This document shows positions 3,744-26,827 of a DNA stretch of 28,428 bases, piece after piece. A program made the translations under genes and the position numbers. Position 1 is the first letter of the stretch; each line of letters starts with the position of its first letter. The stretch is from a virus. The notes beneath the pieces were generated by a model. The model did not search any database, was not told the origin of the DNA, and saw only the letters and a program-made list of their open reading frames with translations. The stretch spans positions 1 to 28,428 of the IMG/VR virus record IMGVR_UViG_3300021957_006857; one strand, written 5' to 3'.

Positions 3744-3874
3744 AATTTCTTAGCCTTATAAAAGTTAATGTGGTCAGTCCAACCCTGAAAAGACTGCCGA
3801 ATATGACACCAGAACTGCCCGTTGTAGGGGGGCTGGTTAATATCTTTGGGGAAGTTTAAGTTAGTTTGTTTCAT
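3740..3874 (-). CDS. Small phage protein, unknown
   Basis: 44 residues beginning MKQTNLNFPKDINQPP, rich in aromatic residues (QFWCHIRQSFQGW). It lies exactly between the 3878-4204 gene and glutaredoxin, and its TGA overlaps the glutaredoxin GTG. That tight packing is the main support. No family recognised. Confidence 0.5.
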   Translation of the reverse strand: MKQTNLNFPKDINQPPYNGQFWCHIRQSFQGWTDHINFYKAKKL

Positions 3875-3877
3875 AGT

Positions 3878-4204
3878 TTAATATTTCCTTTTGGTGTTCA
3901 TTCTATCCTCTCTGTAGCGCCTTAACATATAATCCATATAATCGTAGTAGCGTTCTTCCTCTACTCGTTGTTTTGACTCCCTGAATGTCTTATTAAAGGC
4001 TACTATCTTGTTCATGCTGACCTCATACTCTTCAAGACTTATATGGTCCTCCTGACTCACTCCGTTAACTAGACATATAAAATCCCACACACCAACATCG
4101 TGATGCTTACAGTATTCCCAGAAGCAGTCCCTAAAATTTTCATTCCAAAAGACTCCTTCTTTATTGGCTCTCGCCTTCTTTAATATTTCTTGTTTAATAT
4201 CCAT
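3878..4204 (-). CDS. Hypothetical phage protein
   Basis: 108 residues, predicted mostly helical with a charged C-terminus (RRYREDRMNTKRKY). It contains FRDCFWEYCKHHDVGVWDFI, rich in aromatic and Cys/His residues. Its start overlaps the end of the glycosyltransferase-like gene by 11 bases, so it belongs to the same transcript. Not recognised. Confidence 0.55.
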   Translation of the reverse strand: MDIKQEILKKARANKEGVFWNENFRDCFWEYCKHHDVGVWDFICLVNGVSQEDHISLEEYEVSMNKIVAFNKTFRESKQRVEEERYYDYMDYMLRRYREDRMNTKRKY

Positions 4205-5027
4205 TTACTTTCCCACATATAAGTTTTAAATGTTCCCAGGCTTCTCCAGCAGCCACCTCTTCGGGGAGCCACTGACACCAGGCTAAGTTATTAAGCCATT
4301 GAGTTCTATCAGGCTTTGGAGGGTTATTTAGCTCTGAGTAAGATTTCATTGCTAGCTCCCAACACATAGATCCAGGATCTAAGTTTAAAACAGGTACTCC
4401 ATATACTAGGGAGTCTACTCCTGAGTTACTATTAATAGTTACTAAAGCTTTTACTAGATTAAGCTGTCTCTCTAGAGGTACTTGATTAGAAACTAGTTTT
4501 GTTCTATCTTCAATACTAAATGTGCCCTTTGGGTGAGGACGCACTTTAACTGGAGTTTCAGTAGCTTTTTCTATTTCTTTTATTATACTGTCATAACTAC
4601 CTTTATAATGTCTTAAAGAAGCGTCTCCAGGTACTTGCATTGCAACAAGTATAAACTCTCCTTCATCCCTGTAAGGCCGTACTCTACCATCATCAAAGTG
4701 TTTATTAAATCTATAAGAGTCCTTATCCTCATTTAAATAAGTACCCCTACCATTTAGTCCGTTGAACCCTAAAGAGTACCAAAGAGGCCAGCTTTTTTCA
4801 TCAATCCTTGGCTGTAAATAAGCCGCCTCTATCAGAAGAAAATTACTATACATTCCCTCAAACCTATCGATATTTCTCAAACCCCAAGTTACTAGTAAGT
4901 CACAGTATCCTCGGGTAGTAAGGTCCCAAACCTCGTAATCTTGTCCGTGCTTCTTTAATCCCTCTATAAATTTATCAGCAGAGAATTTATGGTGAGAAAG
5001 ACTGCCTCTGTATACGGCTATTCTCAC
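4194..5027 (-). CDS. Glycosyltransferase-like protein (capsule-synthesis type GT-B)
   Basis: 277 residues. The C-terminal half carries VRPHPKG (162-168) and NSNSGVDSLVYGVPVLNLDP (199-218). These are typical of the nucleotide-sugar side of GT-B folds in capsule/Kdo transferase-like proteins (H-P-K loop, then SNSG and GVP-V). The start is GTG at 5027, overlapping the methyltransferase stop (GTGA). With its two upstream neighbours it forms a cassette likely to build or modify a glycan, either on the host surface or on virion or DNA. Substrate unknown. Confidence 0.65.
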   Translation of the reverse strand: MRIAVYRGSLSHHKFSADKFIEGLKKHGQDYEVWDLTTRGYCDLLVTWGLRNIDRFEGMYSNFLLIEAAYLQPRIDEKSWPLWYSLGFNGLNGRGTYLNEDKDSYRFNKHFDDGRVRPYRDEGEFILVAMQVPGDASLRHYKGSYDSIIKEIEKATETPVKVRPHPKGTFSIEDRTKLVSNQVPLERQLNLVKALVTINSNSGVDSLVYGVPVLNLDPGSMCWELAMKSYSELNNPPKPDRTQWLNNLAWCQWLPEEVAAGEAWEHLKLICGKVNGY

Positions 5028-6347: not shown

Positions 6348-6737
6348 TTACCCAATAGGTATTGATGTGGGCTTACTAGAGGGCGAATACGATAGGTCTA
6401 TAGTTAACATTCCGTTTTCCATGGAAGCAGAAGAGACCTCTAAGGTATTGTCAAGCTTTAGATGCTTCTCGAAACTTTTTCCTGATATACCTTTGTGCAC
6501 CCAGCCTCTACCTTCGTTATTCTCTTTTTTCTCACCTTTAATGGTAAGAACATTTTTGTGAACGTTCACTGAAATTTGGTTTTTGTTCCATCCTGGAACG
6601 GCTACTTCAACTACGTAGCCATGTTCTACTTTTTCAATGTTATAACGAGGGTATTCTGGTGCCTGTTGAGTATATAACGGGCTGTTAATTAAATTGTCGA
6701 AACCGACAAAGAATTTTTCTAGATTTACTGCATTCAT
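6348..6737 (-). CDS. Hsp20/alpha-crystallin small heat-shock protein
   Basis: 129 residues, close to the size of IbpA/IbpB and phage Hsp20 proteins. The alpha-crystallin domain runs from about residue 30 to 120: YNIEKVEHGYVVEVAVPGW, a VLTIKGEK strand, and the closing MENGMLTIDL block that corresponds to the conserved A-x-x-x-n-GvL signature. Such chaperones hold unfolded proteins; phage copies are common in marine myoviruses and may aid virion folding or host proteostasis. Divergent from thyX; promoter at 6850-6878, leader about 105 bases. Confidence 0.85.
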   Translation of the reverse strand: MNAVNLEKFFVGFDNLINSPLYTQQAPEYPRYNIEKVEHGYVVEVAVPGWNKNQISVNVHKNVLTIKGEKKENNEGRGWVHKGISGKSFEKHLKLDNTLEVSSASMENGMLTIDLSYSPSSKPTSIPIG

Positions 6738-8050: not shown

Positions 8051-8277
8051 AACTTGTTGAGGCATTGAGAAACGGCAATGTCGATATAACGTATGAAAGT
8101 TTAAACAGCGGGAAAGAGATAACAAAAACATATACTTTGAAAACTATATTTAAAGTAAATGTTAGTCTCAAATCAGATAAAATAATTGCTTATGATATAG
8201 AAGCAAAGGAATGGGAAGACATAGAAAGGTCCAGCATTAAAAAATGGAGTATAAATGAACAGAGAAGAAGTATTTAA
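8047..8277 (+). CDS. Small phage protein, possible SH3-like fold
   Basis: 76 residues from a GTG start at 8047 that overlaps the MazG-like stop (GTGA). The N-terminal KLVEALRNGNVDITYESLNS and the later strands recall the protein at 697-960 and DUF2693-type phage proteins. Its last 23 bases overlap the lysozyme start. Function unknown. Confidence 0.55.
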   Translation: MKLVEALRNGNVDITYESLNSGKEITKTYTLKTIFKVNVSLKSDKIIAYDIEAKEWEDIERSSIKKWSINEQRRSI

Positions 8278-8701
8278 CCAGCTAAAGGAGGACGAAGGTG
8301 TCAAGTATGAAATCTATAATGACCATCTTGGCCTGGCTACTTTTGGTGTTGGTCATCTTGTTATTGAGAGCGATTCGGAATTTGGTTCGCCCTTGGGTAC
8401 GTCGGTATCAGAGGAGCGAGTTTGGGAAGCGTTTGAAAAGGATTTGGATACGTCTATTGATGAGTGCGAAGTTCTTTTTGGCCCCAAATGGCATGACTTT
8501 CCGGGAGAAGTTCAAGAGATTGTGGTAAACATGATGTTCAATATGGGGCGTCCTCGTTTGTCAAAGTTTAAGAACTTCTGCGCTGCACTAGAAGAAGGCG
8601 ATTGGGCGAAGGCTGCCGTCGAAGGACGAGATTCTCGCTGGCATAAGCAAGTGACGAATCGTGCGGAACGCCTCATGGTACGACTAGAAAATGTATCTTA
8701 A
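8255..8701 (+). CDS. T4-type lysozyme (endolysin)
   Basis: 148 residues. The catalytic triad of T4 lysozyme (Glu-8 residues-Asp-5 residues-Thr) is present with exact spacing as E14, D23 and T29 in DEGVKY..YNDHLGLATFGVGH. A later NMMFNMGRPRLSKFKNF and RDSRWHKQVTNRAERL match the C-terminal lobe of T4 gpE (which has MVFQMG and SRWYNQTPNRAKR). It hydrolyses the MurNAc-GlcNAc bond. No signal peptide, so it should need a holin; holin candidates lie far downstream at 17801 and 18012. Spanin genes follow directly. Confidence 0.92.
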   Translation: MNREEVFNQLKEDEGVKYEIYNDHLGLATFGVGHLVIESDSEFGSPLGTSVSEERVWEAFEKDLDTSIDECEVLFGPKWHDFPGEVQEIVVNMMFNMGRPRLSKFKNFCAALEEGDWAKAAVEGRDSRWHKQVTNRAERLMVRLENVS

Positions 8702-9110
8702 AGTCATATTTCTTCTAGGTGTGGTCGGAGCTGCTGGTGGTGCGTATGCGTATCACCAAGTCACTGTTGCGAAGTTAGAGAATGCGGTTATTCAGTTAGA
8801 AGCTAATAATCGTACTCTTAAAGAGAACAACAATGTATTACAGGTAGCGGCCGAGAACAATGCGACGAAGGTCGCAGAACTAGAAGCTCGAAGAGAGGAA
8901 CAGCAAGCTCAGGTAACTAAACTTACTGCTGTAACAGCCTCTTTACAAGCCGAGAAGTCTAACTTTATGAAAGTATTTAAAGACCACAACCTTACTAGGC
9001 TTGCAAGAGCAAGACCGGGCATGATTGAAAAAAGAGTAAATAAAGCCACCGCAGGTATCTTTAGAACAATAGAGGAAGAGTCAAAGGAGGTTGAAAATGA
9101 GGACGATTAG
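8691..9110 (+). CDS. i-spanin-like (Rz) inner-membrane lysis protein
   Basis: 139 residues. One N-terminal transmembrane helix (about residues 3-20) is followed by a long coiled coil (about 25-100, rich in Glu, Gln, Asn and Ala) and a charged tail. This is the architecture of an inner-membrane spanin. The start overlaps the lysozyme stop and the tail overlaps the lipoprotein gene downstream, matching the usual lysozyme-Rz-Rz1 order. Assignment rests on architecture and position, not sequence identity. Confidence 0.7.
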   Translation: MYLKVIFLLGVVGAAGGAYAYHQVTVAKLENAVIQLEANNRTLKENNNVLQVAAENNATKVAELEARREEQQAQVTKLTAVTASLQAEKSNFMKVFKDHNLTRLARARPGMIEKRVNKATAGIFRTIEEESKEVENEDD

Positions 9111-9546
9111 TATAGCATCATTACTACTTGTTAGTGGGTGTTCTTGGTTTGGTGGTAAAGACATGCCAGCACCATACGTAATGCCGGAGCCTGTTGTAAT
9201 TACTAAAATAGAAACAGTTCCTATTCGTATCTACCAGCCACCTCTACCTCGTGAAATAGACATGCTCGATGTTAACTTCTGGATAATCACTGAAGAAAAC
9301 TATCAGGAGAAACGAGCAGAGATTGAAAAGATGCTTGATGGACAGTTTGTAGTATTTGCTCTGACGCCAGACGGGTACGAGAAGATGTCCGAAAATTTAC
9401 AAGAGTTACGCAGATACTTTAAAGAAACAAAAGAAATTATTCTATACTATAAAAAGGCCACTACTTATGAGACTGAAACAGAAGATCAATCACAGAATGG
9501 ACAAGCTCCAGGAGATGATGGAAAGCAATCAACACCTGGAGAATGA
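9097..9546 (+). CDS. Lipoprotein, probable o-spanin (Rz1-like)
   Basis: 149 residues from the ATG at 9097 behind a perfect AGGAGG. The N-terminus ends in LLLVSGC, a lipobox that predicts lipidation of the Cys, and a proline-rich stretch follows (PEPVV, QPPLPR), as in o-spanins. Unlike the short classical Rz1 it goes on for another 100 residues with a conserved-looking domain (NFWIITEENYQEK, LRRYFKETKEIILYYKKA). That domain I recall from marine myovirus proteins, and it may have its own function. It overlaps the i-spanin gene. Confidence 0.65.
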   Translation: MRTISIASLLLVSGCSWFGGKDMPAPYVMPEPVVITKIETVPIRIYQPPLPREIDMLDVNFWIITEENYQEKRAEIEKMLDGQFVVFALTPDGYEKMSENLQELRRYFKETKEIILYYKKATTYETETEDQSQNGQAPGDDGKQSTPGE

Positions 9547-11283: not shown

Positions 11284-11661
11284 GTGTCGTATAGCGAACA
11301 GGTTATGGATCACTACGAAAACCCTCGGAATGTGGGAAAACTCGACAAAGATTCCCAGACTGTTGGCACGGGCTTAGTGGGTGCGCCTTCGTGCGGTGAC
11401 GTAATGGTTCTACAGATAGACGTAAAAGATAATATTATCTTAGACGCTAAATTTAAAACTTATGGGTGTGGAAGCGCTATTGCTTCCAGCTCACTGTTAA
11501 GTGAGTGGGTAAAGGGTAAGAGTTTAGAAGAAGCTGGTATGATAAAAAATACTGACTTAGCTAATGAACTTGCACTCCCACCTGTTAAAATTCATTGTAG
11601 TGTACTAGCAGAAGATGCTATAAAAGCTGCGATAAAGGATTACAAAGAGAAGCAAGTATGA
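11284..11661 (+). CDS. iscU: Iron-sulfur cluster scaffold protein IscU
   Basis: 125 residues, full length for IscU. All ligands and partner sites are kept: C37 and D39 in GAPSCGDVM, C62 in FKTYGCGSAIASSS, H104/C105 in IHC, and the LPPVK site bound by the chaperone HscA. The sequence is very close to gammaproteobacterial IscU as I remember it (MAYSEKVIDHYENPRN.. in E. coli). It starts with GTG directly after the upstream stop. Host IscU assembles [2Fe-2S] clusters with IscS. No iscS, iscA or hscA lies nearby, so the phage copy would have to use host partners. It is packed between phage genes, so it is not a stray host fragment. Confidence 0.95.
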   Translation: MSYSEQVMDHYENPRNVGKLDKDSQTVGTGLVGAPSCGDVMVLQIDVKDNIILDAKFKTYGCGSAIASSSLLSEWVKGKSLEEAGMIKNTDLANELALPPVKIHCSVLAEDAIKAAIKDYKEKQV

Positions 11662-11915
11662 TGATGGATAGGTTGTACCAGGAAGCAGAGAGCATTGTTT
11701 TAGCAATGTGGGACGAAGAACCCGAAGAGATGGCAGCAGAGATTTCTGTTCAGCTTTCAATTAGCGCAGATTATGCGTGGGAGTTAGTTCAACAAGTTAT
11801 TGTAAACGAAATTCGTATTGAAGAAGGTTACAGTGACGGAGACACTGATTTATTTGATTGGGACGGAGACGCATTAGCCTCCGCAGGGTTTGGAACTGAT
11901 GAAGACTACTTCTAA
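11658..11915 (+). CDS. Small acidic phage protein, unknown
   Basis: 85 residues, strongly acidic (WDEEPEEMAAEI, SDGDTDLFDWDGD). The ATG at 11658 overlaps the iscU stop (ATGA). N-terminal helices could form a small folded unit. The acidity could indicate a protein-partner or DNA-mimic role, but nothing specific supports this. Confidence 0.55.
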   Translation: MMMDRLYQEAESIVLAMWDEEPEEMAAEISVQLSISADYAWELVQQVIVNEIRIEEGYSDGDTDLFDWDGDALASAGFGTDEDYF

Positions 11916-12084
11916 TATTATTGATTTTAACAAGTATAAGAAAGCTAAACAGAGAGCGATCTCTGTGGTAGTAATCGATAGTTTTGATACAGCTACTTTC
12001 ATATATACTGTAACTAATGATAGGGGCGAAACTTTCGAGTTTGATATACCTTATCCAAACTATGACAACTATTTTGACAGCTAA
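11899..12084 (+). CDS. Small phage protein, unknown
   Basis: 61 residues from the ATG at 11899 (a TTG at 11890 is possible). NIIDFNKYKKAKQRAISVVV then beta strands ending FEFDIPYPNYDN. Overlaps the previous gene by 17 bases. Last gene before the 12.1 kb RNA promoter. Confidence 0.5.
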   Translation: MKTTSNIIDFNKYKKAKQRAISVVVIDSFDTATFIYTVTNDRGETFEFDIPYPNYDNYFDS

Positions 12085-12097
12085 GAAAAAATAGTTC

Positions 12098-12126
12098 TTG
12101 ACATCAAACCTATTAAACGGTATAAT
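12098..12126 (+). promoter_or_regulatory. sigma70 promoter of the 12.1-kb RNA locus
   Basis: TTGACA (12098-12103) and TATAAT (12121-12126), 17-base spacer. The first gene downstream starts only at 12655. Confidence 0.85.
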
Positions 12127-12132
12127 TGTATT

Positions 12133-12650
12133 CATAAATGAGAGAGATTCTTATTTAAAATCCACTAGAGATGCCTCCTAGTTAATTGAGGTATCGCCCA
12201 TACCCCTCAGGCGTAAGTGAGTGGAGGATTCTAACTTCCTCCTAGTTAGACGGCGTAGTTGCTACGATAAGTGACTCTTCGGAAGGCAGTCCGATGCGGA
12301 TACAAACTGCCCTTGGGGAGCTAATGACCCCGTTGCCCCATAAACTGGTACCGATTCCTATGGGCACGTCGAGTCTTCCAGGCTAGAGACGACGTTAAAA
12401 CATAAACCCTGCCGAGAAGAGAACTCGTAGACCATCTCCGTGTAGGCACGCCACGTTAATCAAAAGGATCTAATCTGGGTGTAGGTTTTAAGGCTTTTTT
12501 CCTGCTAATAAAAGGCCACTATTTCCAAGGTAAGGTAAACTGTCGTGGAGTAGGTAAGACTTTTTACGAGCAAAGCACTACGCCTTACCGAACACCTGGG
12601 GGTGAGCATTCTGCCTTAAAGCGTAACGCGCCCCCACCTATTATAGAGGT
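12133..12650 (+). ncRNA. Candidate large structured RNA or long leader of bfd
   Basis: About 520 bases with no supported gene, starting just after a consensus promoter. Local helices read directly: 8 bp at 12170-12177/12188-12195; CTAACT/AGTTAG around 12231-12249; CGTAG TTG CTACG near 12254; GGCAGT/ACTGCC enclosing TCCG ATG CGGA (about 12284-12311); ACGTCG/CGACGT enclosing about 18 bases (12366-12395); CGTG TAGG CACG near 12439; GGTAAGG (12529-12535) with CCTTACC (12583-12589); GGGGG/CCCCC near the end. No T-rich terminator separates it from bfd, so it may be a 5' leader or be processed. I cannot match it to a named RNA family; tRNA, tmRNA and group I/II intron signatures were not found. Confidence 0.6.
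12174..12248 (+). repeat. Direct repeat CCTCCTAGTTA (two copies)
   Basis: The same 11 bases occur at 12174-12184 and 12238-12248 within the candidate RNA. CCTCCT is the anti-Shine-Dalgarno core. One copy lies partly in the loop of the CTAACT/AGTTAG hairpin. Confidence 0.8.
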
Positions 12651-12654
12651 CTTT

Positions 12655-12876
12655 ATGTATATTTGTATTTGTAACAATATATCCAGTAAAGACTTAGAAA
12701 GAGACCCATTTCTTATTGATAAGGTGGGCTCAAAATGTGGTAAATGTATTGCGCCAATAATTGCGCAGAGCTTTATAAATGGAGTTTATACATGCCAGCA
12801 GGAAAAGGTACTTACGGTAAAAAAAGAGGTCGTCCCGCCAAAAAAGGTAAGCAAAAGCTACCAATGTCTTTCATGA
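12655..12876 (+). CDS. bfd: Bfd-like [2Fe-2S] ferredoxin
   Basis: 73 residues, close to the 64 of E. coli Bfd. It starts MYICICNNIS, with the CxC pair C4/C6, and has GSKCGKC with C28/C31, the four cluster ligands of bacterioferritin-associated ferredoxin. Bfd binds bacterioferritin and passes electrons to release stored iron. The C-terminal 28 residues overlap the next gene in another frame and look unlike Bfd (lysine-rich), so the tail may be constrained by the overlapping gene. AGAGG precedes the ATG. It stands 1 kb from iscU. Confidence 0.8.
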   Translation: MYICICNNISSKDLERDPFLIDKVGSKCGKCIAPIIAQSFINGVYTCQQEKVLTVKKEVVPPKKVSKSYQCLS

Positions 12877-12908
12877 AGAAAAAGAAATCAAAGAAGAAAC
12901 GTAAATAA
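12792..12908 (+). CDS. Tiny lysine-rich phage protein
   Basis: 38 residues beginning MPAGKGTYGKKRGRPAKKGK and ending in a run of Lys. GGAG stands eight bases before the ATG. KRGRP resembles an AT-hook, so DNA binding is likely. Similar MPAGKGTYG proteins are familiar from marine phages, often near structural genes. It overlaps bfd by 85 bases and ends in TAATG with the next gene. Confidence 0.7.
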   Translation: MPAGKGTYGKKRGRPAKKGKQKLPMSFMKKKKSKKKRK

Positions 12909-13072
12909 TGGCTGCTCGTGGATTGTATGCAAATATAAACCGCCGAAAAAAGAAGGGTACTAGTAGATCGAAGAAAAAGTCTACTATCTCACCCAAAGCT
13001 TATTCCCTGATGAAAGCAGGGTTTAAGAAGAAGGGAAAGAAAAGTGGCAGCAAAAAAACGAAGAAGCGTTAG
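12908..13072 (+). CDS. Tiny lysine-rich phage protein (RGLYANIN type)
   Basis: 54 residues, MAARGLYANINRRKKKGTSR at the start and a Lys-rich tail. The family is one I recall from marine phages with unknown role; the charge suggests DNA packaging or a virion-internal protein. Its ATG overlaps the upstream TAA and its 3' end overlaps the next GTG by 29 bases. Confidence 0.7.
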   Translation: MAARGLYANINRRKKKGTSRSKKKSTISPKAYSLMKAGFKKKGKKSGSKKTKKR

Positions 13073-13352
13073 AAAGAAAGATCCCCGCCTTAAAAGAGCT
13101 GGAGTTTCAGGTTTCAATAAACCAAAAAGAACTCCCAAGCACCCCAAAAAATCTCATGTTGTCGTAGCAAAAGCTGGCGGCAAAGTAAAAACAATACGAT
13201 TCGGCCAGCAAGGTGTCTCAGGTTCTCCCAAGAAAGCGGGTGAATCGAAGGCAGCTGCTTCGCGTCGTCGTTCATTTAAAGCCCGCCATGCAGCCAACAT
13301 CGCCAAAGGGAAGTTGTCCGCAGCATATTGGGCAAATAAGGTAAAATGGTAA
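13044..13352 (+). CDS. Basic phage protein (DUF6321-like)
   Basis: 102 residues from a GTG at 13044. The body KTIRFGQQGVSGSPKKAGES, SFKARHAANIAKGKLSAAYW and the final WANKVKW are highly characteristic of a marine-phage family of unknown function, frequently seen next to structural genes. Strongly basic N-terminus (AAKKRRSVRKKDPRLKRAG). It completes a set of three overlapping basic proteins. Confidence 0.75.
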   Translation: MAAKKRRSVRKKDPRLKRAGVSGFNKPKRTPKHPKKSHVVVAKAGGKVKTIRFGQQGVSGSPKKAGESKAAASRRRSFKARHAANIAKGKLSAAYWANKVKW

Positions 13353-14044
13353 TGGCGGCTAATTTAGGAATTTTAGGGCTTTCACATGCAAATAAGCGTA
13401 TAGATAACTGGAACAGTGTACATAAATTCGGGTCAAATCCTTCTGTAGGCACCGATTTTGAGAGTATATGGAGCGCAGGAGGACTTTATCCTTGGAAACC
13501 TGGAGCGGCTACACTAATTATTCAAAGCGATGATAATGGAGACATCGGTACTGTAGAAGTTCAAGGCCTAGATGGAGACTATAATTTTCTGACAGAAACT
13601 GTCACTCTTACTGGGGCCAGCCCTAATACGGTACTTACTACAGGTACTTTTCTTCGCGTTTTTCGTATGAGATTTACGGGAGCTGCCGAGAATGCTGGTA
13701 CAATAATAGCAAACCATACTGCAACAAATATTGCTCAAATTGACCCCGGCAAAGCCCAAACTTTAATGGCAGTTTATACTATCCCTGCAGGAAACTATGG
13801 GTGGCTTCTTAATTATTCAGTGAGCGTCGGTAAAAATGATGATGCCACTATAGAAGTATACACCCGTAAGTCTGGGGAACCTTTTCGTATTTTGAGCGAA
13901 ATCAGTGTATATCAAAACAGTATTAGTAAAGACTTCATAGTCCCCATTCATCTTGCTCCCAAAACGGATATTGATATTCGGGCTAAGACGACTAATGCAG
14001 GCGGTAGTCAAGTAATCTCTACCTTTGATGTAATTTATCCATGA
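13346..14044 (+). CDS. Putative virion structural protein
   Basis: 232 residues (start 13346, or 13352 which forms TAATG with the upstream stop). Beta-rich throughout: a domain with TLIIQSDDNGDIGTVEVQGL, then RVFRMRFTGAAENAGTIIAN, and a C-terminal domain with KAQTLMAVYTIPAGNYGWLL and PKTDIDIRAKT. I recall this repeated layout from marine phage proteins presumed to be fibre or capsid-decorating proteins. No enzyme motif. No other tail or capsid gene is visible in the window. Confidence 0.6.
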   Translation: MVMAANLGILGLSHANKRIDNWNSVHKFGSNPSVGTDFESIWSAGGLYPWKPGAATLIIQSDDNGDIGTVEVQGLDGDYNFLTETVTLTGASPNTVLTTGTFLRVFRMRFTGAAENAGTIIANHTATNIAQIDPGKAQTLMAVYTIPAGNYGWLLNYSVSVGKNDDATIEVYTRKSGEPFRILSEISVYQNSISKDFIVPIHLAPKTDIDIRAKTTNAGGSQVISTFDVIYP

Positions 14045-14616
14045 GAAAACTTGTATTACTTTTAGCTACGTTTGTATCTTTTTCAGCTACAGCGGAAGAA
14101 GCCCCGATTATTGATGATAATATTATTCGTACTGACTCTACCACTAATAGTACAGTTACTACGAAATCAGACACATCAACAACTTTAAGAGCCCCTCCTG
14201 CGTCTGCTATTACGCCTACTATCAACACTTCAAACAGCGATTTGTGTACTTTTGGAGTTGCGGGGGCTGTTCAGACGCAGATTTTAGGTATCTCTATGGG
14301 TTCTCAGATAACTGACTCAAACTGTGAACGGTTAAAACTTTCTAAAACTCTGTACGATATGGGAATGAAAGTTGCGGCAGTATCTACATTGTGTCAGGAT
14401 GAGAGAGTGTTTGACGCAATGCTAATGGCCGGAACTCCTTGTCCTTTTGAAGGTTTGATCGGGGATGAAGCAAAAGCAGCGTGGAAAGTAAACGAAGAAC
14501 TCGAACCCTCCGTTGACGAAACGACGGAAGAAAAAGAAAAAGGACTCGGTGATGGTACTAAGACACTCATGGGCAGTGCCGGTGTTGTTAGCTTGCTGCT
14601 CTTACTCATACTCTAG
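14041..14616 (+). CDS. Secreted/membrane-anchored phage protein A
   Basis: 191 residues. Sec signal peptide MRKLVLLLATFVSFSATA with cleavage likely before EEAP. A Ser/Thr-rich segment (STTNSTVTTKSDTSTTL) follows, then a folded domain with four Cys (residues about 68, 102, 119, 131; GTPCPFEGLIGDEA) and a hydrophobic C-terminal tail (VVSLLLLLIL). First of five consecutive genes with Sec-type N-termini. The pairs of Cys suggest disulfides in the periplasm. The family is known to me only as hypothetical in marine phages. Confidence 0.65.
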   Translation: MRKLVLLLATFVSFSATAEEAPIIDDNIIRTDSTTNSTVTTKSDTSTTLRAPPASAITPTINTSNSDLCTFGVAGAVQTQILGISMGSQITDSNCERLKLSKTLYDMGMKVAAVSTLCQDERVFDAMLMAGTPCPFEGLIGDEAKAAWKVNEELEPSVDETTEEKEKGLGDGTKTLMGSAGVVSLLLLLIL

Positions 14617-15424
14617 CGAAGAAGTATACGGGACGACAACCAATGCTGCGAGTATTGGATTGAATTGGGTGATGTCTAATATCTTGCCTCAAGCGGCAGG
14701 ATTGACCGTAAATAATGTAATCTATAGATATACCACAGAAAAAAACCCCGAAGATGATATGCTGGTTCATGTTCAAAATGAAAATGCTCAGGGAGATGGA
14801 TATATTTTCAGAAACACAGACGACTGGTCAGGTTTGCCAGGGAACACGATTAATAAAACAATTCCTGTAGGTGGAATAGGAATTGATTTTTGGGGTGATG
14901 GCTCCATAGAAGTGGAGGGTTTCGGAACAGTTTTAGACCCAGAGGTTTACTATACATATCAATATGTTCCTTGTGATAATCCTCAGTCTGACCCAGAATG
15001 TCCGGGCTATATTGACCCGCTCACACTAACTGAAGAGCCTGAAATAGATACTTCAAGTGAGGAGTATATTCAAGCAGAACTGGACCGCAAAGCGAACATG
15101 AAGGCACAAAAAGAAGAGGAAGAAGAAAAAGAGCGAGAGAAATTTGCTAAGAACACCGAAGAAAAAGTAAGGAATAGTTTAGAGAAGATGTTAGGTTTGT
15201 CTATTGGGGCAGGCCTACAGGAAGCACAAGACACACTATTGCATAACGCATTAGTGTCAACGAATTATCTGCCTAGAGGTTATCTAGTGCAGATAAAGGG
15301 AGGAGAGTATCCGGATGCAGAGATGCTGAAAGACTCTAACCTCCCTGACAATGCAAATGGTCGCCGAGTAAACTTTGCGCAGCAACTTTTGCACCAAAAA
15401 ATGGTTCAATCGCAGTATGATTGA
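14552..15424 (+). CDS. Secreted phage protein B with coiled coil
   Basis: 290 residues from the ATG at 14552, which follows AAGGA and starts a signal-peptide-like MVLRHSWAVPVLLACCSYSY. An upstream in-frame ATG at 14513 would add a Lys-rich stretch and spoil the signal. After a beta-rich domain (residues about 30-130, with DDMLVHVQNENAQGDGYIF) comes a Cys-containing turn (VPCDNPQSDPECPGYI), an acidic helical coiled coil (about 150-195) and a helical C-terminus. Overlaps gene A by 65 bases. Function unknown. Confidence 0.6.
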   Translation: MVLRHSWAVPVLLACCSYSYSSEEVYGTTTNAASIGLNWVMSNILPQAAGLTVNNVIYRYTTEKNPEDDMLVHVQNENAQGDGYIFRNTDDWSGLPGNTINKTIPVGGIGIDFWGDGSIEVEGFGTVLDPEVYYTYQYVPCDNPQSDPECPGYIDPLTLTEEPEIDTSSEEYIQAELDRKANMKAQKEEEEEKEREKFAKNTEEKVRNSLEKMLGLSIGAGLQEAQDTLLHNALVSTNYLPRGYLVQIKGGEYPDAEMLKDSNLPDNANGRRVNFAQQLLHQKMVQSQYD

Positions 15425-15449
15425 CAGAGTATAGAGGGGGAACTCTATT

Positions 15450-15938
15450 ATGAAAAAACTAGTTATTTTACTATTTTGCGCCTTTAGTGCGCAAGCAGAG
15501 GAGATGGAAGTAGTGGGGAACGTTGCTTCAAAATGTGTAGTAACTCCTGATACCGCAGGTGTATTTGGTAACCCTACAGCAGATGTGTTAAGCACTGATC
15601 CTACTGACGGCGGAGTTGATCCTGTCGTTCGATTTGATGTAATTCAAGCGAGCATGTACAAAGCTAGAATTTTGTACCCCGTGGAATTTTCAGAAGCTCC
15701 TACGCTGAATGATGTAGTAAACTGGACTGGCGATGTTGCTACGTCTCAAGTATCAGATACTAGCATGTCTGGGTATGACGCGGCAAAAGTTGAGTTTGAT
15801 AATGTTACTGAATTCAGTTTGACTGTTGCTGGTAGCACATGGTTTAAGACAGAATCACAAGCAGATTACGGCTATGGTAAGGCATTTCCTGGCGGTGTAT
15901 ACCGTGCGGTAGTGAGTGCTGAATGCATCGCTATCTAA
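15450..15938 (+). CDS. Secreted phage protein C, pilin/SCPU-like in outline
   Basis: 162 residues. Signal peptide MKKLVILLFCAFSAQA, cleaved likely before EEM. The mature part begins with a beta strand and Cys (GNVASKCVV) and ends GGVYRAVVSAECIAI with a second Cys, so the first and last strands could be disulfide-linked. This outline recalls Ig-like pilin or spore-coat-U-type secreted subunits; I see no diagnostic signature. GGGGGAA precedes the ATG. Confidence 0.6.
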   Translation: MKKLVILLFCAFSAQAEEMEVVGNVASKCVVTPDTAGVFGNPTADVLSTDPTDGGVDPVVRFDVIQASMYKARILYPVEFSEAPTLNDVVNWTGDVATSQVSDTSMSGYDAAKVEFDNVTEFSLTVAGSTWFKTESQADYGYGKAFPGGVYRAVVSAECIAI

Positions 15939-16294
15939 TTTTATTGTTGGTGATGAGTGGGTACATAAGTGCCCACGAATTCACCCCAACTTATCCAAAG
16001 TTGAAGAATTCTTATGTTGAGGGTGTATTATATACTACAATGACCCTTTTCAATATGCGAAAAGATGTAGAGTATTATGAGTTTGGTGTTTTTAATGCGG
16101 AGTGGAAGAAAGTACCTTTTGCTATGCAGGAGAAAGTTATGCGTTTCAAACACCTTGAAAAGAAAAAGGTTGACATTTATATAAGGGAGAAGGACAAAGA
16201 AGAAGTAGTTTACATCTGTTCAAAGTCAAAGTTGATTGTAACAGGAAGTGAAAAGACATCGATATCTTCTAGGATTTGTTCAAAAGTTAAATGA
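15923..16294 (+). CDS. Secreted phage protein D, fimbrial-chaperone-like in outline
   Basis: 123 residues. Signal peptide MHRYLILLLVMSGYISA. The mature part, EFTPTYPKLKNSYVEGVLYT then VEYYEFGVFNAEWKKVPFA and KKKVDIYIREKDKEEVVYI, reads like one immunoglobulin-fold domain of a pilus-assembly chaperone. Two Cys near the C-terminus (YICSKSKL, RICSKVK) may pair. About half the length of a PapD-type chaperone, so a single domain only. Its start overlaps gene C. Confidence 0.6.
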   Translation: MHRYLILLLVMSGYISAHEFTPTYPKLKNSYVEGVLYTTMTLFNMRKDVEYYEFGVFNAEWKKVPFAMQEKVMRFKHLEKKKVDIYIREKDKEEVVYICSKSKLIVTGSEKTSISSRICSKVK

Positions 16295-16719
16295 GATTCA
16301 TACTATTAATGCTAGTGTCAACTTACGCGATGGCAGATTCTAGTTCTTTAAATTTAAACTTACCTAGCACTCCGGGGTCTTACGCGAGTGATAGAATAAG
16401 AACAAATGGCAACGTCGAGTGTTCCATGGCGATTGGCGGAAGCGTGAATTTAGAGTTTGGTGTAGTAGGAGTTCTAAATCAGAATGGACCCTACACTAGC
16501 AATATAGGGAACTATTCGGAAGACTACGATGAGGAAGGTTTAGTAAAAGATGTTGGAGTGTATGCGAAAATTAGCATACCACTCAATGCACCGAAAACTA
16601 GATTAGATTGTAATCAGCTTTATAAATTGGAGCTAGCAAGACAGAGAATAGAACTACAAAAATTACAACAAGAAATAAATAATCTAAGAGCACTAAAATT
16701 CGAGGAAGATGATGGCTGA
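16291..16719 (+). CDS. Secreted phage protein E with C-terminal coiled coil
   Basis: 142 residues. Signal peptide MRFILLMLVSTYAMA. A Ser/Gly/Asn-rich beta region (NGNVECSMAIGGSVNLEFGV) leads to RLDCNQLYKLELARQRIELQ and a heptad-like helix to the end. Two Cys. ATG overlaps the stop of gene D. The layout (folded head, helical tail) suits a periplasmic or outer-surface adaptor. Confidence 0.6.
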   Translation: MRFILLMLVSTYAMADSSSLNLNLPSTPGSYASDRIRTNGNVECSMAIGGSVNLEFGVVGVLNQNGPYTSNIGNYSEDYDEEGLVKDVGVYAKISIPLNAPKTRLDCNQLYKLELARQRIELQKLQQEINNLRALKFEEDDG

Positions 16720-17239
16720 GGTAGAGTTTGGGGGTATGACATTTAAGGGCGGTAAGATGATGGTTGTTCTTACTGCTCTGTCTACATTAGGTGGAGCAAG
16801 TTGGGGTGCGTTTGAATTCTACTCTGACTATATGGACATGAAAGAAATTGTTACTAACATTGATACAACAGAGATAGAGAATCGCAATAAAATTATAGAG
16901 CAGAAAATAGATGCAGCTCAGGCATCTGTTGACGAAGCAATAGATTACTCACGTAGCATTAAGAATGACCTACGTGATGACTTCAACCGTATGGAAGCAA
17001 ACGTTGATAGGGTTGAAGATCAGAATAGAGAAGTAGAAGATAAAGTGAAAACTATGATTGACAGAGCAGATGAACGCTTTGATAGTAAAAGAGAGAGTTT
17101 ACAAACAGATACGGAACTTAAAATTAATGTGCTAGAGGATAGACTGAATAAGAAAATACAAGCAGTACTAGATAATCCACTAGCATCATTTAATTTTGAT
17201 AAGCTAGAACCGACAGCAGCAGGAGGTTCAGAGGGGTAG
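16709..17239 (+). CDS. Membrane-anchored coiled-coil protein
   Basis: 176 residues (start 16709 or 16712). One hydrophobic segment around residues 17-35 (MVVLTALSTLGGASWGAFEF) is followed by a coiled coil of over 100 residues (about 45-155) with a regular Asp/Arg/Asn heptad pattern. Ends in a short Gly/Ser tail. Overlaps gene E. It could tether the secreted cluster to the inner membrane; spanin-like function is also possible but a spanin pair already exists. Confidence 0.6.
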   Translation: MMAEVEFGGMTFKGGKMMVVLTALSTLGGASWGAFEFYSDYMDMKEIVTNIDTTEIENRNKIIEQKIDAAQASVDEAIDYSRSIKNDLRDDFNRMEANVDRVEDQNREVEDKVKTMIDRADERFDSKRESLQTDTELKINVLEDRLNKKIQAVLDNPLASFNFDKLEPTAAGGSEG

Positions 17240-17258
17240 TCTCAGCAGGGGGAACTGA

Positions 17259-17339
17259 ATGGGATATATTAAAAAGCTAGTAGTGGTGTGTATACTTGGA
17301 GTAGTTATAGGCGCTTTAATTGCGTTGATATTTATATGA
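17259..17339 (+). CDS. 26-residue membrane peptide
   Basis: MGYIKK followed by a continuous hydrophobic helix to the end (VVVCILGVVIGALIALIFI). A strong GGGGGA site stands before the ATG, and its TGA overlaps the next ATG (ATGA), which supports it as a real gene. Confidence 0.55.
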   Translation: MGYIKKLVVVCILGVVIGALIALIFI

Positions 17340-17542
17340 AAGTTCGTATAGTAACTACATCTGGACATACACTATATGGGTCTTTATTAGGAGAAGAAGC
17401 AGTATCACTGCCACCGAAAGAAGCCATAGAGTGGATAATGAACAGTGGTACTAAGTTCATAAGATACTTGCAGCCAAACGGGCAGGAAGTATTATTTAAC
17501 AAGAATGCTATTATGAATATAGCCGAAGACGACTACAATTAG
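17336..17542 (+). CDS. Small phage protein, unknown
   Basis: 68 residues from the ATG at 17336. Starts with beta strands (KVRIVTTSGHTLYGSLLG), then a helix (PPKEAIEWIMNSG) and strands (IRYLQPNGQEVLFNKNAIMN). Resembles a small SH3-like or Sm-like unit. Not recognised. Confidence 0.55.
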   Translation: MKVRIVTTSGHTLYGSLLGEEAVSLPPKEAIEWIMNSGTKFIRYLQPNGQEVLFNKNAIMNIAEDDYN

Positions 17543-17551
17543 GAAAATTAA

Positions 17552-17791
17552 ATGATATACGTTGTGCACACTTACTACAATGGAGAAACAATTCATACGC
17601 ACAAGTATATGACTATTGAGGAAGCCTTCGTTGATTATAATACTTACACTTTTGCAGGACTGAAAGAGGGTACACCATACCAGTGTAAGAAGGCACTCTA
17701 CATAAAAGAGGGTAACGCCTACTTTCAGTATATTGGTCCGGTTTATTTCCCACCGGAAAAATGGGATGGGGTAGACCGCAGGTCTACATAA
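17552..17791 (+). CDS. Small phage protein, unknown
   Basis: 79 residues, aromatic-rich (YVVHTYYNGETIHTHKYMT), ending VYFPPEKWDGVDRRST. Preceded by AGGA nine bases before the ATG. Not recognised. Confidence 0.55.
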   Translation: MIYVVHTYYNGETIHTHKYMTIEEAFVDYNTYTFAGLKEGTPYQCKKALYIKEGNAYFQYIGPVYFPPEKWDGVDRRST

Positions 17792-17800
17792 GGAGATAGT

Positions 17801-17971
17801 ATGAATTTATTGGAGATTTGGAGTATTGTTACTACGCTAGTAACGGCAGCGAGTATTGTAAGTGCGGCAACGCCTACGAAAGCTGACGACAACTTTATGC
17901 AGAACTATGTAACGCCAGTAATTGATGCACTAGCATTGAATTTCTTCAACGCGAAGCCTGAAAAGAAGTAA
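17801..17971 (+). CDS. Holin-like small membrane protein
   Basis: 56 residues. The N-terminal half is a hydrophobic helix (LEIWSIVTTLVTAASIVSAA), then TPTKADDNF and a second amphipathic or hydrophobic helix (VIDALALNFFNAKPEKK). Size and layout resemble small phage holins of the IWS..VTAAS..ATP type I recall. The lysozyme lacks a signal peptide, so a holin is expected; this and the 18012 gene are the candidates. AGGAGA stands before the ATG; a terminator follows. Confidence 0.6.
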   Translation: MNLLEIWSIVTTLVTAASIVSAATPTKADDNFMQNYVTPVIDALALNFFNAKPEKK

Positions 17972-17977
17972 AACAGC

Positions 17978-17997
17978 GGGGCCTTCGGGCCCTTTTT
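17978..17997 (+). terminator. Intrinsic terminator with UUCG loop
   Basis: GGGCC and GGCCC form a stem closed by a TTCG tetraloop and followed by five T. It ends the long plus-strand operon, or attenuates entry into the 18012 gene. Confidence 0.8.
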
Positions 17998-18011
17998 CTT
18001 AGGAGAAATAA

Positions 18012-18326
18012 ATGAGTGAACATCATCCAGCGGATGTAAATGGTGACGGTCATGTAAGCGATGAAGAGCTTATGATGCACCTCGAATTTAAACGAAAGAA
18101 ACTCGAAGATGAAGATGCGCAGCGAGATGCCATGAGAAAGATGACATGGTTCGCACTCTTCGGAATGTTACTTTATCCTTTCGGCATCTTTTGTACTAGC
18201 CTCTTCGGGCTTGATACGGCTGCGGGTATCATCGGTGATATCGCACCCACTTACTTTATCGCCATTAGTGCGTTAGTTGCGGCGTTCTTTGGAGCGAACG
18301 CGTACTCAGGTAAAAATAATACTTGA
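18012..18326 (+). CDS. EF-hand membrane protein, holin-like
   Basis: 104 residues. Residues 8-19 (DVNGDGHVSDEE) are a canonical EF-hand loop with D8, N10, D12, S16 and E19 as ligands. A charged helix (23-45) and two hydrophobic helices (about 46-68 and 76-97, AAGIIGDIAPTYFIAISALV) follow. The type is familiar from marine phages without assigned function. Two transmembrane helices and location behind the holin-like gene fit a class II holin or its regulator, perhaps responding to Ca2+; this is inference. AGGAGA precedes the ATG. Confidence 0.65.
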   Translation: MSEHHPADVNGDGHVSDEELMMHLEFKRKKLEDEDAQRDAMRKMTWFALFGMLLYPFGIFCTSLFGLDTAAGIIGDIAPTYFIAISALVAAFFGANAYSGKNNT

Positions 18327-18351
18327 CACGGAGATGTCGAGGGCGTATAAT
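18323..18351 (+). promoter_or_regulatory. sigma70 promoter
   Basis: TTGACA (18323-18328) and TATAAT (18346-18351), 17-base spacer. The -35 box overlaps the stop of the EF-hand gene. Confidence 0.85.
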
Positions 18352-18374
18352 ATATGAAAATTAAGGGGACAGCT

Positions 18375-18542
18375 ATGCAAATTCAACAATCGCTACAAAA
18401 CACTTGGGAGGCTGAAGGATTATTCCACGTTATTCCAGGTTTCGCACTTTACCACAGCAATGATATGATGACGAACGACTACGGAGTTATTGTAACGTGG
18501 TTAGTTTGGTCTTACGGCATTGAACTGTGGATGGATGCGTAA
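18375..18542 (+). CDS. Small phage protein, unknown
   Basis: 55 residues from the ATG at 18375 behind AAGGGGAC; an earlier in-frame ATG at 18354 lies before the expected transcription start. Aromatic-rich and partly hydrophobic (GVIVTWLVWSYGIELW near the C-terminus). Its TAA overlaps the next ATG. Confidence 0.55.
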   Translation: MQIQQSLQNTWEAEGLFHVIPGFALYHSNDMMTNDYGVIVTWLVWSYGIELWMDA

Positions 18543-18670
18543 TGAAGTTTGCTGAGAAGATATACGATAAACGCAAGGCTTTAGCTTTGGTAGAACAGGA
18601 CGAACGGGATCTAGAAAATTTTATTAACTCTATTGCGTTACGCTTACTGTTGGCCAAAAATAAATCTTGA
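18542..18670 (+). CDS. Small helical phage protein
   Basis: 42 residues, a charged helix followed by FINSIALRLLLAKNKS. TAATG overlap with the upstream gene. Its TGA lies within the -35 box of the 18.7 kb RNA promoter. Not recognised. Confidence 0.5.
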   Translation: MKFAEKIYDKRKALALVEQDERDLENFINSIALRLLLAKNKS

Positions 18671-23463: not shown

Positions 23464-23637
23464 TCATCCGTATTGAATGAAGGCGGCCAGCGATATAAGG
23501 CATAATGCGCAGAATGATATTACGATAAAAGTGTAGACATAAAATACCATATAGAACCCCGAACCCCTAAGCTTGTCCCGAACGATTTTCATTTCTCTAT
23601 CAGTTGCAAGCCTTCTAACGTCAATCGTATTTTTCAT
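23464..23637 (-). CDS. Small membrane protein
   Basis: 57 residues. A charged N-terminal half (RRLATDREMKIVRDKLRG) and a transmembrane helix at about 29-53 (MVFYVYTFIVISFCALCLIS). ATG at 23637 overlaps the PPK2 stop (TAATG). Last gene of the operon, ending just beside parS site 2. Confidence 0.55.
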   Translation of the reverse strand: MKNTIDVRRLATDREMKIVRDKLRGSGFYMVFYVYTFIVISFCALCLISLAAFIQYG

Positions 23638-24251
23638 TATTTTTCTCCTAATGCGAATATTAATTCTCGTAAAAAATTCTCAATACCAGTTTTTTTATTA
23701 TTGTAATCTACATGGATCCATTCGTCATCGATGCAACCATTTTTAAGCGTGGTCATCTCGTCATAGTAGGAAAGTGCGCGTTCATCATTAGGCGAAAATT
23801 TCCAGTATGTCAATGGCGACTTTTTGCGCTTTTCTATTCGCCGGTGCTGTTCAGCTTCAGTAATCGAAAGCCACATTTTTATCATGGTGACATTCTGGTC
23901 ACGTTCCCAGATTTTGTGCGATTTGATAAAATTGTCGTATTGCTTAGGTGAGCACCAGCCATTCAAGCGCTGAACCATTGCGCGAGAATACCAAGAACGG
24001 TCATAAAAAACAATCTGATTCCCGCGTGGCATTTTATGCGACCAATAAGAAAGCCAATTTTTCATGGTGCGCTTGCTAGGCTTTTTGCTCAAATGAACAG
24101 AAAAGCGATTCATAGGCAGATAATGCGTAGCCTCGCGAATCGTGCTGGATTTTCCGGCAGTGTCGCGCCCTTCTAACAGGACCGCGACCGGTCCTGTTAG
24201 CCCTTCGACAATCTCGTTTAACTCAGCTTGTAAAGTCTCAATCTGATTCAT
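23637..24251 (-). CDS. ppk2: Polyphosphate kinase 2 (PPK2)-like
   Basis: 204 residues from the ATG at 24251. The Walker A region EGRDTAGKSSTIRE (27-40), the lid/Walker B element FYDRSWYSRAMVQRLNGWC (82-100) and RRIEKRKKSPLTYWKFSP are typical of PPK2. PPK2 transfers phosphate between polyphosphate and nucleotides, mostly phosphorylating GDP/ADP or NMPs. It is slightly shorter than bacterial PPK2 (about 230-300). It sits with a DnaQ-like exonuclease and a HAD protein, so a role in nucleotide supply during infection is likely. GGAG precedes the start at a longer spacing. Confidence 0.85.
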   Translation of the reverse strand: MNQIETLQAELNEIVEGLTGPVAVLLEGRDTAGKSSTIREATHYLPMNRFSVHLSKKPSKRTMKNWLSYWSHKMPRGNQIVFYDRSWYSRAMVQRLNGWCSPKQYDNFIKSHKIWERDQNVTMIKMWLSITEAEQHRRIEKRKKSPLTYWKFSPNDERALSYYDEMTTLKNGCIDDEWIHVDYNNKKTGIENFLRELIFALGEK

Positions 24252-24256
24252 TATTG

Positions 24257-24364
24257 TTAAGCTCCAATGATTAAGTAGATAATGCCACATATTAACAGAA
24301 AGTCGGCGGTAATGGAATAGGCAATATAAAGTTTAAAAGCAAGTGCTAAAATTTTCGTTCTCAT
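24257..24364 (-). CDS. Small membrane protein
   Basis: 35 residues, nearly all hydrophobic after MRTK (ILALAFKLYIAYSITA, then DFLLICGIIYLIIGA). ATGA overlap with the exonuclease stop; the PPK2 ATG follows six bases after its TAA. Confidence 0.5.
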   Translation of the reverse strand: MRTKILALAFKLYIAYSITADFLLICGIIYLIIGA

Positions 24365-26493: not shown

Positions 26494-26827
26494 ATAACAA
26501 AAAGTTCTAGCATCTCTTAAGCATAGACCGTGCCAACTTTTTGCAACATCATTATGAATGATGGTAGGCGGGGGCGGTTATAAGACCCAGTGATAATGGT
26601 CACGCGCAAACCCCCTTTCACGTACAACTTTAAGAATTTTATAAGCAAAAAAGGTGCTATAACAAGCTGTACCTACAAAGCGGCTCAACACGACCAAAAA
26701 TACTTCTTGACATTTTTAATTTTTTCAATTATAATAACATTCTTGAGAAAAGATGAATTTTCCCAAATCCTCAAACATAAACCCACAAACCAAAGAAAGG
26801 CGAAAGCCTGTAATAAAAGGAGTTACT
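26494..26827. other. Gene-free region upstream of the receptor
   Basis: Holds an inverted repeat, CATCATT ATG AATGATG (26547-26563), a consensus promoter and the receptor leader. A 37-codon GTG frame on the minus strand (26578-26691) has hydrophobic character but no ribosome site, and is not called. Confidence 0.5.
26707..26735 (+). promoter_or_regulatory. sigma70 promoter for the TonB-dependent receptor
   Basis: TTGACA (26707-26712) and TATAAT (26730-26735), 17-base spacer. The leader is about 87 bases and holds an AGGC GAAA GCCT hairpin (26798-26809) before AAAAGGAG. Confidence 0.85.

Follow-up and report, generated by a model that had tools for sequence, protein, structure and literature searches.

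The stretch of DNA analyzed here, referred to below as the window, is the 28,428 nucleotide (nt) viral record IMGVR_UViG_3300021957_006857 of IMG/VR; it carries on its plus strand a compact block of six genes, designated A to F. Open reading frames (ORFs) were taken from a program-made list of all six frames, and the six genes lie where an earlier note on this DNA had placed them. Gene A (14041..14616, 191 residues) encodes a predicted secreted protein with a Ser/Thr-rich N-terminus, four conserved cysteines and a hydrophobic C-terminal tail, the latter present in 71 of 73 distinct homologues; it matches phrog_20531 (E-value 1.5e-15). Gene B (14552..15424, 290 residues) was assigned the ATG at 14552, the mechanical ORF beginning upstream at a TTG; its product is predicted to be secreted and, judging from its sequence, is probably beta-rich with an acidic/helical C-terminal part. 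Gene C (15450..15938, 162 residues) encodes a pilin-like subunit of immunoglobulin-like (Ig-like) type, with a donor-strand-like N-terminus and the cysteines Cys29 and Cys159. The product of gene D (15923..16294, 123 residues) resembles the N-terminal domain of pilus chaperones and has Cys99 and Cys119 in its last two strands (F1/G1). Gene E (16291..16719, 142 residues; phrog_37374, E-value 2.3e-11) encodes a predicted secreted protein with two putative amphipathic strands, whose motif is conserved in 78 of 79 distinct E sequences, and a C-terminal helix. The product of gene F (16709..17239, 176 residues) has an N-terminal transmembrane segment and a long coiled-coil-like part that would lie in the periplasm. 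Overlaps amount to 65 nt for A/B, 16 nt for C/D, 4 nt for D/E and 11 nt for E/F.

Export signals were scored with a home-made rule, not with SignalP: a hydrophobic core without a preceding acidic residue, and an AxA-like site. The window proteins A to E are positive and F is negative. Thus, the description of this block in the earlier note as five consecutive overlapping Sec-type genes holds as far as the N-termini are concerned, but not for the overlaps, since B and C are separated by a gap of 25 nt. Within the window the rule was positive in 13 of the 103 six-frame ORFs of at least 60 residues, four of them being A, C, D and E; B was missed in that list, where it is entered with the long TTG start. 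Among homologues, rule-positive N-termini were found in 117/126 A, 119/134 B, 148/148 C, 147/150 D and 121/146 E, with 18/136 for F, while shuffling of whole proteins gave 0–11 positives per family. These signal-peptide-like N-termini suggest that Sec exports A to E into the host periplasm. Conserved cysteines, counted beyond residue 25 (beyond residue 20 in C), number four in A (124/126), and two in B (132/134), C (80/80 distinct sequences), D (150/150) and E (146/146); the cysteine pairs pointed out earlier are therefore present, in even and conserved numbers, in all five proteins.

Scans of A to F against Pfam and PHROG gave no function, the matches being weak or to unknown families; for B there was no Pfam match near the cut-off and no match among phage isolates. 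A lipobox-like motif is seen in B of the window and in only 38 of 86 distinct B homologues, and the lipobox rule found none in A, C, D and E of the window. As the earlier note had proposed, the sixth gene probably encodes a membrane coiled coil: F has a single hydrophobic segment (Kyte-Doolittle value 1.41 from residue 17; a segment above 1.4 is present in 56 of 75 distinct F) and a coiled-coil-like tail. Its outline, an N-terminal transmembrane segment plus coiled coil, resembles that of an inner spanin; spanin families are absent from its PHROG matches.

D was modelled with AlphaFold2 from 60 aligned sequences (predicted local distance difference test, pLDDT, 90.3) and C from 57 (pLDDT 92.8). 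The alignments (A1–A3) consist of chosen representatives; in those used for the structures the row of L002 was replaced by that of the window, with 59 of 63 rows retained for D (the longer L143, L155 and L160 being omitted) and 56 of 57 for C. Both models are confident and both match Ig-like domains; the outcome named in the earlier note as a refutation, models without Ig-like folds, thus did not arise. A Foldseek search of the PDB with the D model gave 19 chains at E-value <=0.001, of which 17 came from pilus-chaperone entries (PapD, FaeE, SafB, DraB, SfaE and FimC) and the remaining two were MSP domains. With a second aligner, Z ranged from 9.4 to 11.1 among the 50 matches listed; SafB reached Z 11.1 (106–109 residues, root-mean-square deviation 3.3–4.0) and FimC Z 11.0 (101 residues, root-mean-square deviation 2.8). 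Unrelated Ig domains score near these chaperone matches (CsxA, Z 10.5; MSP, Z 9.6). Residues 17–123 of D superpose on residues 1–114 of FimC, that is on its N-terminal domain, and the D model has the N-terminal Ig-like domain of PapD type.

The second, C-terminal Ig-like domain is missing. The 82 distinct D sequences are 116–153 residues long, 79 of them having 130 residues or fewer; in 79 of the 82 no more than nine residues follow the second cysteine, the other three having 16, 18 and 32. Thus, the D model terminates at the boundary of the N-domain, where the second domain of a chaperone would start. Cys99 (strand 97–103) and Cys119 (strand 117–121) are both present in 60/60 aligned D, in the F1-G1 placement typical of FGL chaperones, and a disulfide is predicted from their position. 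According to a passage of PMC4133393, FGL chaperones have an F1-G1 disulfide, an F1-G1 loop of about 24 residues and an N-terminal extension of 12–14 residues. D lacks both the long loop and the extension: its F1-G1 gap is 13 residues, and its first strand lies at 19–21 in a mature chain that would begin at about residue 18. Residue 18, which would open mature D, is a His, invariant in 60/60 aligned sequences and missing from the D relatives of Vibrio phages described below. Copper binding through this His was considered and dropped, as the alignment has no second invariant His and Vibrio D does without the first.

In summary, D shares with the periplasmic chaperones (PapD/FimC and the FGL members SafB and Caf1M) the fold of the N-domain, the cysteine pair of the last two strands and basic residues where strand G1 ends. 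It differs from them in having one domain, no N-terminal extension, a short F1-G1 loop and a first strand devoid of a conserved Arg, in being accompanied by no usher that we could find, and in giving no match to PF00345 (PapD_N) either at E-value <=1 or, across 12 records, at E-value <=10. The chaperone families compared in the same passage of PMC4133393 consist of two linker-connected domains and act in the chaperone-usher pathway. The single-domain fimbrial-chaperone-like outline suggested for D in the earlier note is therefore borne out by the structure model and not by the sequence profile. Judged by the model, D resembles the first of the two pilus-chaperone domains and may have a similar mode of action, but we do not class it as a member of the family.

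The gene that adjoins D encodes the candidate client. The C model is an Ig-like sandwich by its matches, and its first 12 mature residues form no strand. Counted from the first mature cysteine, this segment has Gly at position -6 and Val or Ile at positions -4 and -8, each in 80/80 distinct sequences. Alternating hydrophobic residues with a Gly are the donor-strand layout of pilins, and the pattern was found in 70 of the 80 distinct C sequences compared with 19 of 4000 shuffles. A profile comparison (hhalign) of C with 15 pilins of E. coli K-12 aligned just the donor-strand segment (21 columns, 69%, E-value 4e-5), while three control pairs gave 11%, 3% and 1.7%. The C-terminal end has the form G-x-Y...C-I-A, with Gly, Tyr and Cys each in 80/80; the second cysteine sits in the last strand. 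The top Foldseek match of C is the CFA/I pilin CfaB (E-value 8e-4, TM-score 0.43); PapG, Fim and Csu pilins follow lower down, interspersed with staphylococcal adhesins and AP2. No match at E-value <=0.001 was found in a viral structure library, and profile searches against PDB sequences with the C, D and E alignments gave chance-level matches or none.

Hence C resembles the pilins of chaperone-usher systems (type 1, CFA/I, Csu) in its Ig-like fold, its donor-strand-like mature N-terminus, in which an invariant Gly precedes Cys, and its profile match to the K-12 pilins at the N-terminal segment. It differs from them in its weak fold match (Z below 8), in having its cysteines in the first and last strands, in being phage-borne, and in that no usher was found and no adhesin gene was recognised beside it. 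Of the pilin-like character claimed for C earlier, the donor-strand N-terminus and the leading position of CfaB speak in its favour, whereas the structural Z values stay low; we regard C with moderate confidence as a donor-strand pilin-like protein. The usher family PF00577 was detected at E-value <=1 in none of 12 records (the window, five long relatives and six Vibrio phages), and an E. coli control was positive. The six GenBank phage records were searched whole (vB_VhaS-tm being deposited as partial), and the other six are possibly fragments. As no usher was found, a classical pilus is unlikely, the earlier note having put forward a pilus-like appendage or a superinfection block as the possible function.

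To reveal how far the block is conserved, related marine viral loci were compared. A search with C yielded 66 viral loci, and one with D at least 584 confirmed among 599 candidate viral-contig stretches, of which 80 were used. After removal of identical D genes 88 loci were left, and 65 of them have room for the whole cluster. The order A-B-C-D-E was kept in 64 of these 65 distinct loci, more than expected by chance; in the single exception (L024) E falls under the length cut-off, and a 109-residue E frame is present there. In all 64 ordered loci A and B overlap by about 65 nt and C adjoins D, the latter also in the seven Vibrio records read. F lies downstream of E in 60 of the 64, at times beyond inserted genes. 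By eye, neighbouring genes vary among the loci listed and include tail-fibre-like, lysozyme, spanin-like or metabolic genes. With its strict five-gene order amid varied neighbours, A to E thus behave as one transferable unit.

In the window, the gene upstream of A (13346..14044, plus strand) is virion-type and tail-fibre-like (phrog_8198); its relatives are mostly from cyanophages, some being annotated as tail fiber or virion structural proteins, and it adjoins A in only part of the related loci. In two T4-like relatives (L061:8136-8471 and L056:8124-8471) a signal-peptide protein of 111–115 residues, outer-membrane-barrel-like by eye, lies directly upstream of A. A search of genome contigs gave seven matches, which lie on contigs of metagenome-assembled genomes (MAGs), five with A-F, one with B-F and one with E-F only, which are probably binned phage contigs. 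Two D profiles, each searched against 369 class members of a gammaproteobacterial MAG, gave 0 matches in sets that had no positive control, and Vibrio D gave 0 matches in plasmids.

Beyond these loci, part of the block was revealed in phages of Vibrio. A tblastn search with E gave matches in 181 Vibrio phage records, and the two genes preceding E in phage pVp-1 proved to be relatives of C (97.2%, E-value 4e-11) and D (96.3%, E-value 1.6e-9) by profile comparison, these E-values being single-pair and not database-wide. The C and D genes of pVp-1, counted separately, each match 179 of 50,697 records, all of them from Vibrio. Thus, a strongly diverged but profile-significant C-D-E core is present in some 180 Vibrio phages that belong to several genome types: T5-like Demerecviridae of 111–129 kb, vB_VhaS-tm (Queuovirinae) of 59.7 kb, K251 of 58.8 kb and records of 79–83 kb. 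We read seven of these records (pVp-1, vB_VhaS-tm, K120, D93, Thalassa, 51E28.1 and K251). Hidden Markov models (HMMs) detect C, D and E in all seven, in the same order as in the window and annotated as hypothetical proteins, and in 7/7 they are preceded by two genes, X and Y. No match to A, B or F was found in the seven loci, nor to A and B by tblastn in the Vibrio records. By eye, X and Y start without a signal peptide where translated. We call them fibre-like since a relative of Y is annotated as putative L-shaped tail fiber protein; their PHROGs are of unknown function. The C-D-E genes of vB_VhaS-tm and K251 are flanked by capsid genes on one side and tail genes on the other; a short lipoprotein-like ORF follows E in pVp-1, Thalassa, D93 and K251. 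Phages douglas 12A4 and SHOU24 have no C-D behind Y, but an E-like protein together with a lipoprotein-like ORF (the E of douglas by HMM, E-value 4e-9, the rest by eye). In SHOU24 (L178, about 3400-4450) a Ser/Thr/Asn-rich secreted-looking protein, seen by eye, also follows Y, and C and D were not found by HMM.

Conversely, pelagiphages and a roseophage have A but not C-D-E; HMM searches of six such A loci revealed no C, D or E. In pelagiphage HTVC115P A is accompanied by a relative of F (32%), and three other small proteins, one of them membrane/coiled-coil-like by eye, lie between A-B and F in place of C-D-E (L069:6878-7583). Since A is found without C-D-E, and C-D-E without A, B and F, the cassette of the window appears to be a fusion of two units, A-B(-F) and C-D-E.

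The time of expression was approached through promoters. The T4 late promoter is given in an excerpt of PMC1524935 as TATAAATA. Of 76 distinct upstream regions, 37 have a late box of this type that starts 20–70 nt before A, while 0.38 would be expected from the plus-strand background of the same 802 kb; before B to F the corresponding numbers are 0/66, 0/73, 1/75, 0/79 and 0/69. One carrier (L061/G001) can be typed as T4-like from its polymerase, its UvsX-like recombinase and its helicase (PHROGs) and has CATAAATA at the same place, one base off the late box and hence excluded from the 37. As this genome is outside the 37, T4-type markers were sought in other loci: among regions that reach more than 6 kb upstream, UvsX- and gp41-like (helicase) genes were located close to A in 6 of the 10 that bear the box and in 0 of the 10 that do not. 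A sigma-70 site with at least 11 of 12 matches was found within 350 nt of A in 16 of the 76 regions and in 21 of 1520 shuffles. Where the late box precedes A, the cassette is therefore probably an autonomous late operon. This conclusion applies to T4-like carriers only.

In the window phage, a transcript reaching A-F may start at a perfect sigma-70 promoter, TTGACA-N17-TATAAT (12098..12126, plus strand). Perfect sites of the form TTGACA-N16-18-TATAAT occur 13 times in the 28-kb window, which we judge to be many, so that this promoter is not specific to the A-F operon. An intrinsic terminator-like hairpin (17978..17993, plus strand) may mark the end of the operon; it is one of five such sites, with 4.2 expected in shuffles, and is weak alone. 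The promoter is followed by about 530 nt without a convincing gene (12127-12654), in which CTCCTAGTTA was seen by eye to be repeated. A small Cys-rich ORF, Bfd-type [2Fe-2S]-like by eye and without a PHROG, is situated at 12655-12876, between the promoter and A, and a NifU-like Fe-S assembly gene (phrog_8429, E-value 1.7e-40) at 11284-11661. A Rfam scan of 11900-18600 gave nothing at E-value <=0.5.

Tentatively, and at somewhat less than an even chance, we favour the view that A-F are a late, usherless, chaperone-pilin-like envelope cassette that serves chiefly to mask or remodel the host surface. A to E, usually with F, would form a self-contained transferable cassette of tailed phages, switched on late in at least part of its range, and Sec would carry A-E to the periplasm. 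There C would be a pilin-like Ig domain that is incomplete, and D, a minimal chaperone consisting of the first domain only, would supply it with its own last strand. Without an usher, C would be handed by donor-strand exchange to a fixed envelope partner, which may be E, F or an outer-membrane protein of the host. The finished complex would mask or remodel the surface of the dying cell, which would prevent released progeny from adhering to the cell or its debris and keep competitors out. The position of the Vibrio C-D-E genes directly behind two fibre-like genes in 7/7 records is expected if the cassette concerns the receptor. According to a passage of PMC9586334, the Llp lipoprotein of phage T5 masks FhuA, including against adsorption to lysed fragments. 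By analogy, Llp may be taken as a precedent for the purpose and not for the parts: like Llp-type masking lipoproteins the cassette is phage-encoded and exported, and in Vibrio phages fibre-like genes adjoin it and a small lipoprotein-like ORF follows E in four records, but unlike them it is multi-gene, larger, preceded by a late-promoter box, and devoid of a conserved lipobox in A-E.

Several results weigh against this reading. Comparison of the D profile with five K-12 chaperones by hhalign was not significant (0.7–1.3%); since the sequence-profile comparison failed, the chaperone claim depends on the structure model. In pilus chaperones the C-terminus of the subunit is anchored by an Arg (R8 in PapD, R20 in Caf1M). 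No conserved counterpart was seen in the first strand of D, where the equivalent position can be given as a range only: residues 18-25 contain no Arg or Lys in 60/60 sequences, and of the 60 residue 26 is Arg in 2 and Lys in 34, and residue 28 Arg in 5 and Lys in 30. For C, the second aligner placed SdrD first at Z 7.8 and gave 0/999 matches at Z >=8, so that taken alone the fold match is weak. The best PHROG match of F, itself weak (E-value 0.003), is labelled virion structural protein. Neither a late box nor a sigma-70 site was found in 28 of the 76 upstream regions, including those of the nearest relatives of the window. Y was found in 257 records and C or D in 179 (separate counts), so that Y also occurs without C-D-E; six stretches with Y contained no C or D by HMM search, and Y was not found in 11 records of the window lineage by a search that had no positive control. 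The link to fibres is therefore not general, and an obligatory tie of the cassette to Y was rejected. Finally, many exclusion proteins are made early, according to the same passage of PMC9586334, as against a late cassette in the T4-like carriers; the late promoter speaks against an early exclusion gene and still allows late masking of a receptor.

The donor-strand-like N-terminus of C with its invariant Gly would also suit a subunit that polymerises by donor-strand exchange into a short pilus- or capsule-like fibre, with E, F or A replacing the usher as export or anchor platform, because polymerising pilins carry such an N-terminus as well. The leading Foldseek match to the major pilin CfaB and the two amphipathic strands and helix of E, conceivably an oligomeric pore, are in line with a fibre. 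We nevertheless consider it unlikely, given the lack of an usher in the 12 records, the weak fold match of C, and the second cysteine of C in the last strand; in type 1 pilins this cysteine lies in strand B. The same combination of chaperone-like and pilin-like parts without an usher might instead be a decoy, in which C as a false subunit and D as a chaperone lacking domain 2 jam the chaperone-usher pili of the host. This would leave the constant partners A, B and E unexplained and fits poorly with late timing, and we find it very improbable.

Late expression is compatible with two further alternatives. The proteins might reach the virion, for example as collar whiskers or fibres, their N-terminal signals serving membrane-coupled assembly. 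A literature search for virion proteomics found only the study of the Queuovirinae siphophage R7M, whose virions, according to an excerpt of PMC8265664, bear head-tail whiskers and contain an unknown protein in abundance; in the collection of phage records searched, matches to C, D and E were confined to Vibrio. The location of the Vibrio versions behind fibre-like genes, and in vB_VhaS-tm and K251 between capsid and tail genes, points the same way, as does the label of the PHROG matched by F. Five separate Sec-type signals with cysteine pairs fit the periplasm better, and virions of tailed phages are assembled in the cytoplasm, which makes a virion role decidedly unlikely. The block might also be an accessory module for lysis or weakening of the envelope, an idea to which the inner-spanin-like outline of F lends some colour, as does the finding that 10 of the 76 regions have a lysozyme homologue at most 1.5 kb upstream of A. 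The other 66 regions have no lysozyme homologue within that distance, and in the window genes for lysis lie elsewhere: a lysozyme-like ORF (8255-8701, by eye), an Rz-like spanin (8691-9110, phrog_739, E-value 9e-10) and an Rz1-like lipoprotein ORF (9091-9546, by eye). We rate lysis as the least probable of these explanations.

Three other ORFs of the window should be mentioned, all recognised by eye. A TonB-dependent-receptor-like ORF without a PHROG match (26753-28426), whose signal-peptide-like start lies further in, runs off the end of the contig and may be phage cargo or a join to host DNA. A polyphosphate-kinase-2-like ORF, also without a PHROG match, occupies 23637-24290 and a small-heat-shock-like ORF 6348-6737, both on the minus strand.

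In a broader sense, it is possible, if rather doubtful, that phages possess an usher-free minimal chaperone-pilin system, made up of a one-domain chaperone, a donor-strand pilin-like subunit and secreted partners, that builds a late envelope structure and is common to marine phages of T4-like type and three or more other genome types. A literature search covering titles and the openings of abstracts turned up no phage chaperone-pilin system. D was found in at least 584 viral-contig stretches and the C-D-E core in about 180 Vibrio phage records, and with Vibrio phages among the carriers a direct test in culture is possible. If the proposal is true, a first domain and a pilin-like client without an usher would be the least that donor-strand chaperoning needs, and the cassette would represent a widespread, unannotated way for phages to rebuild the host envelope late in infection.

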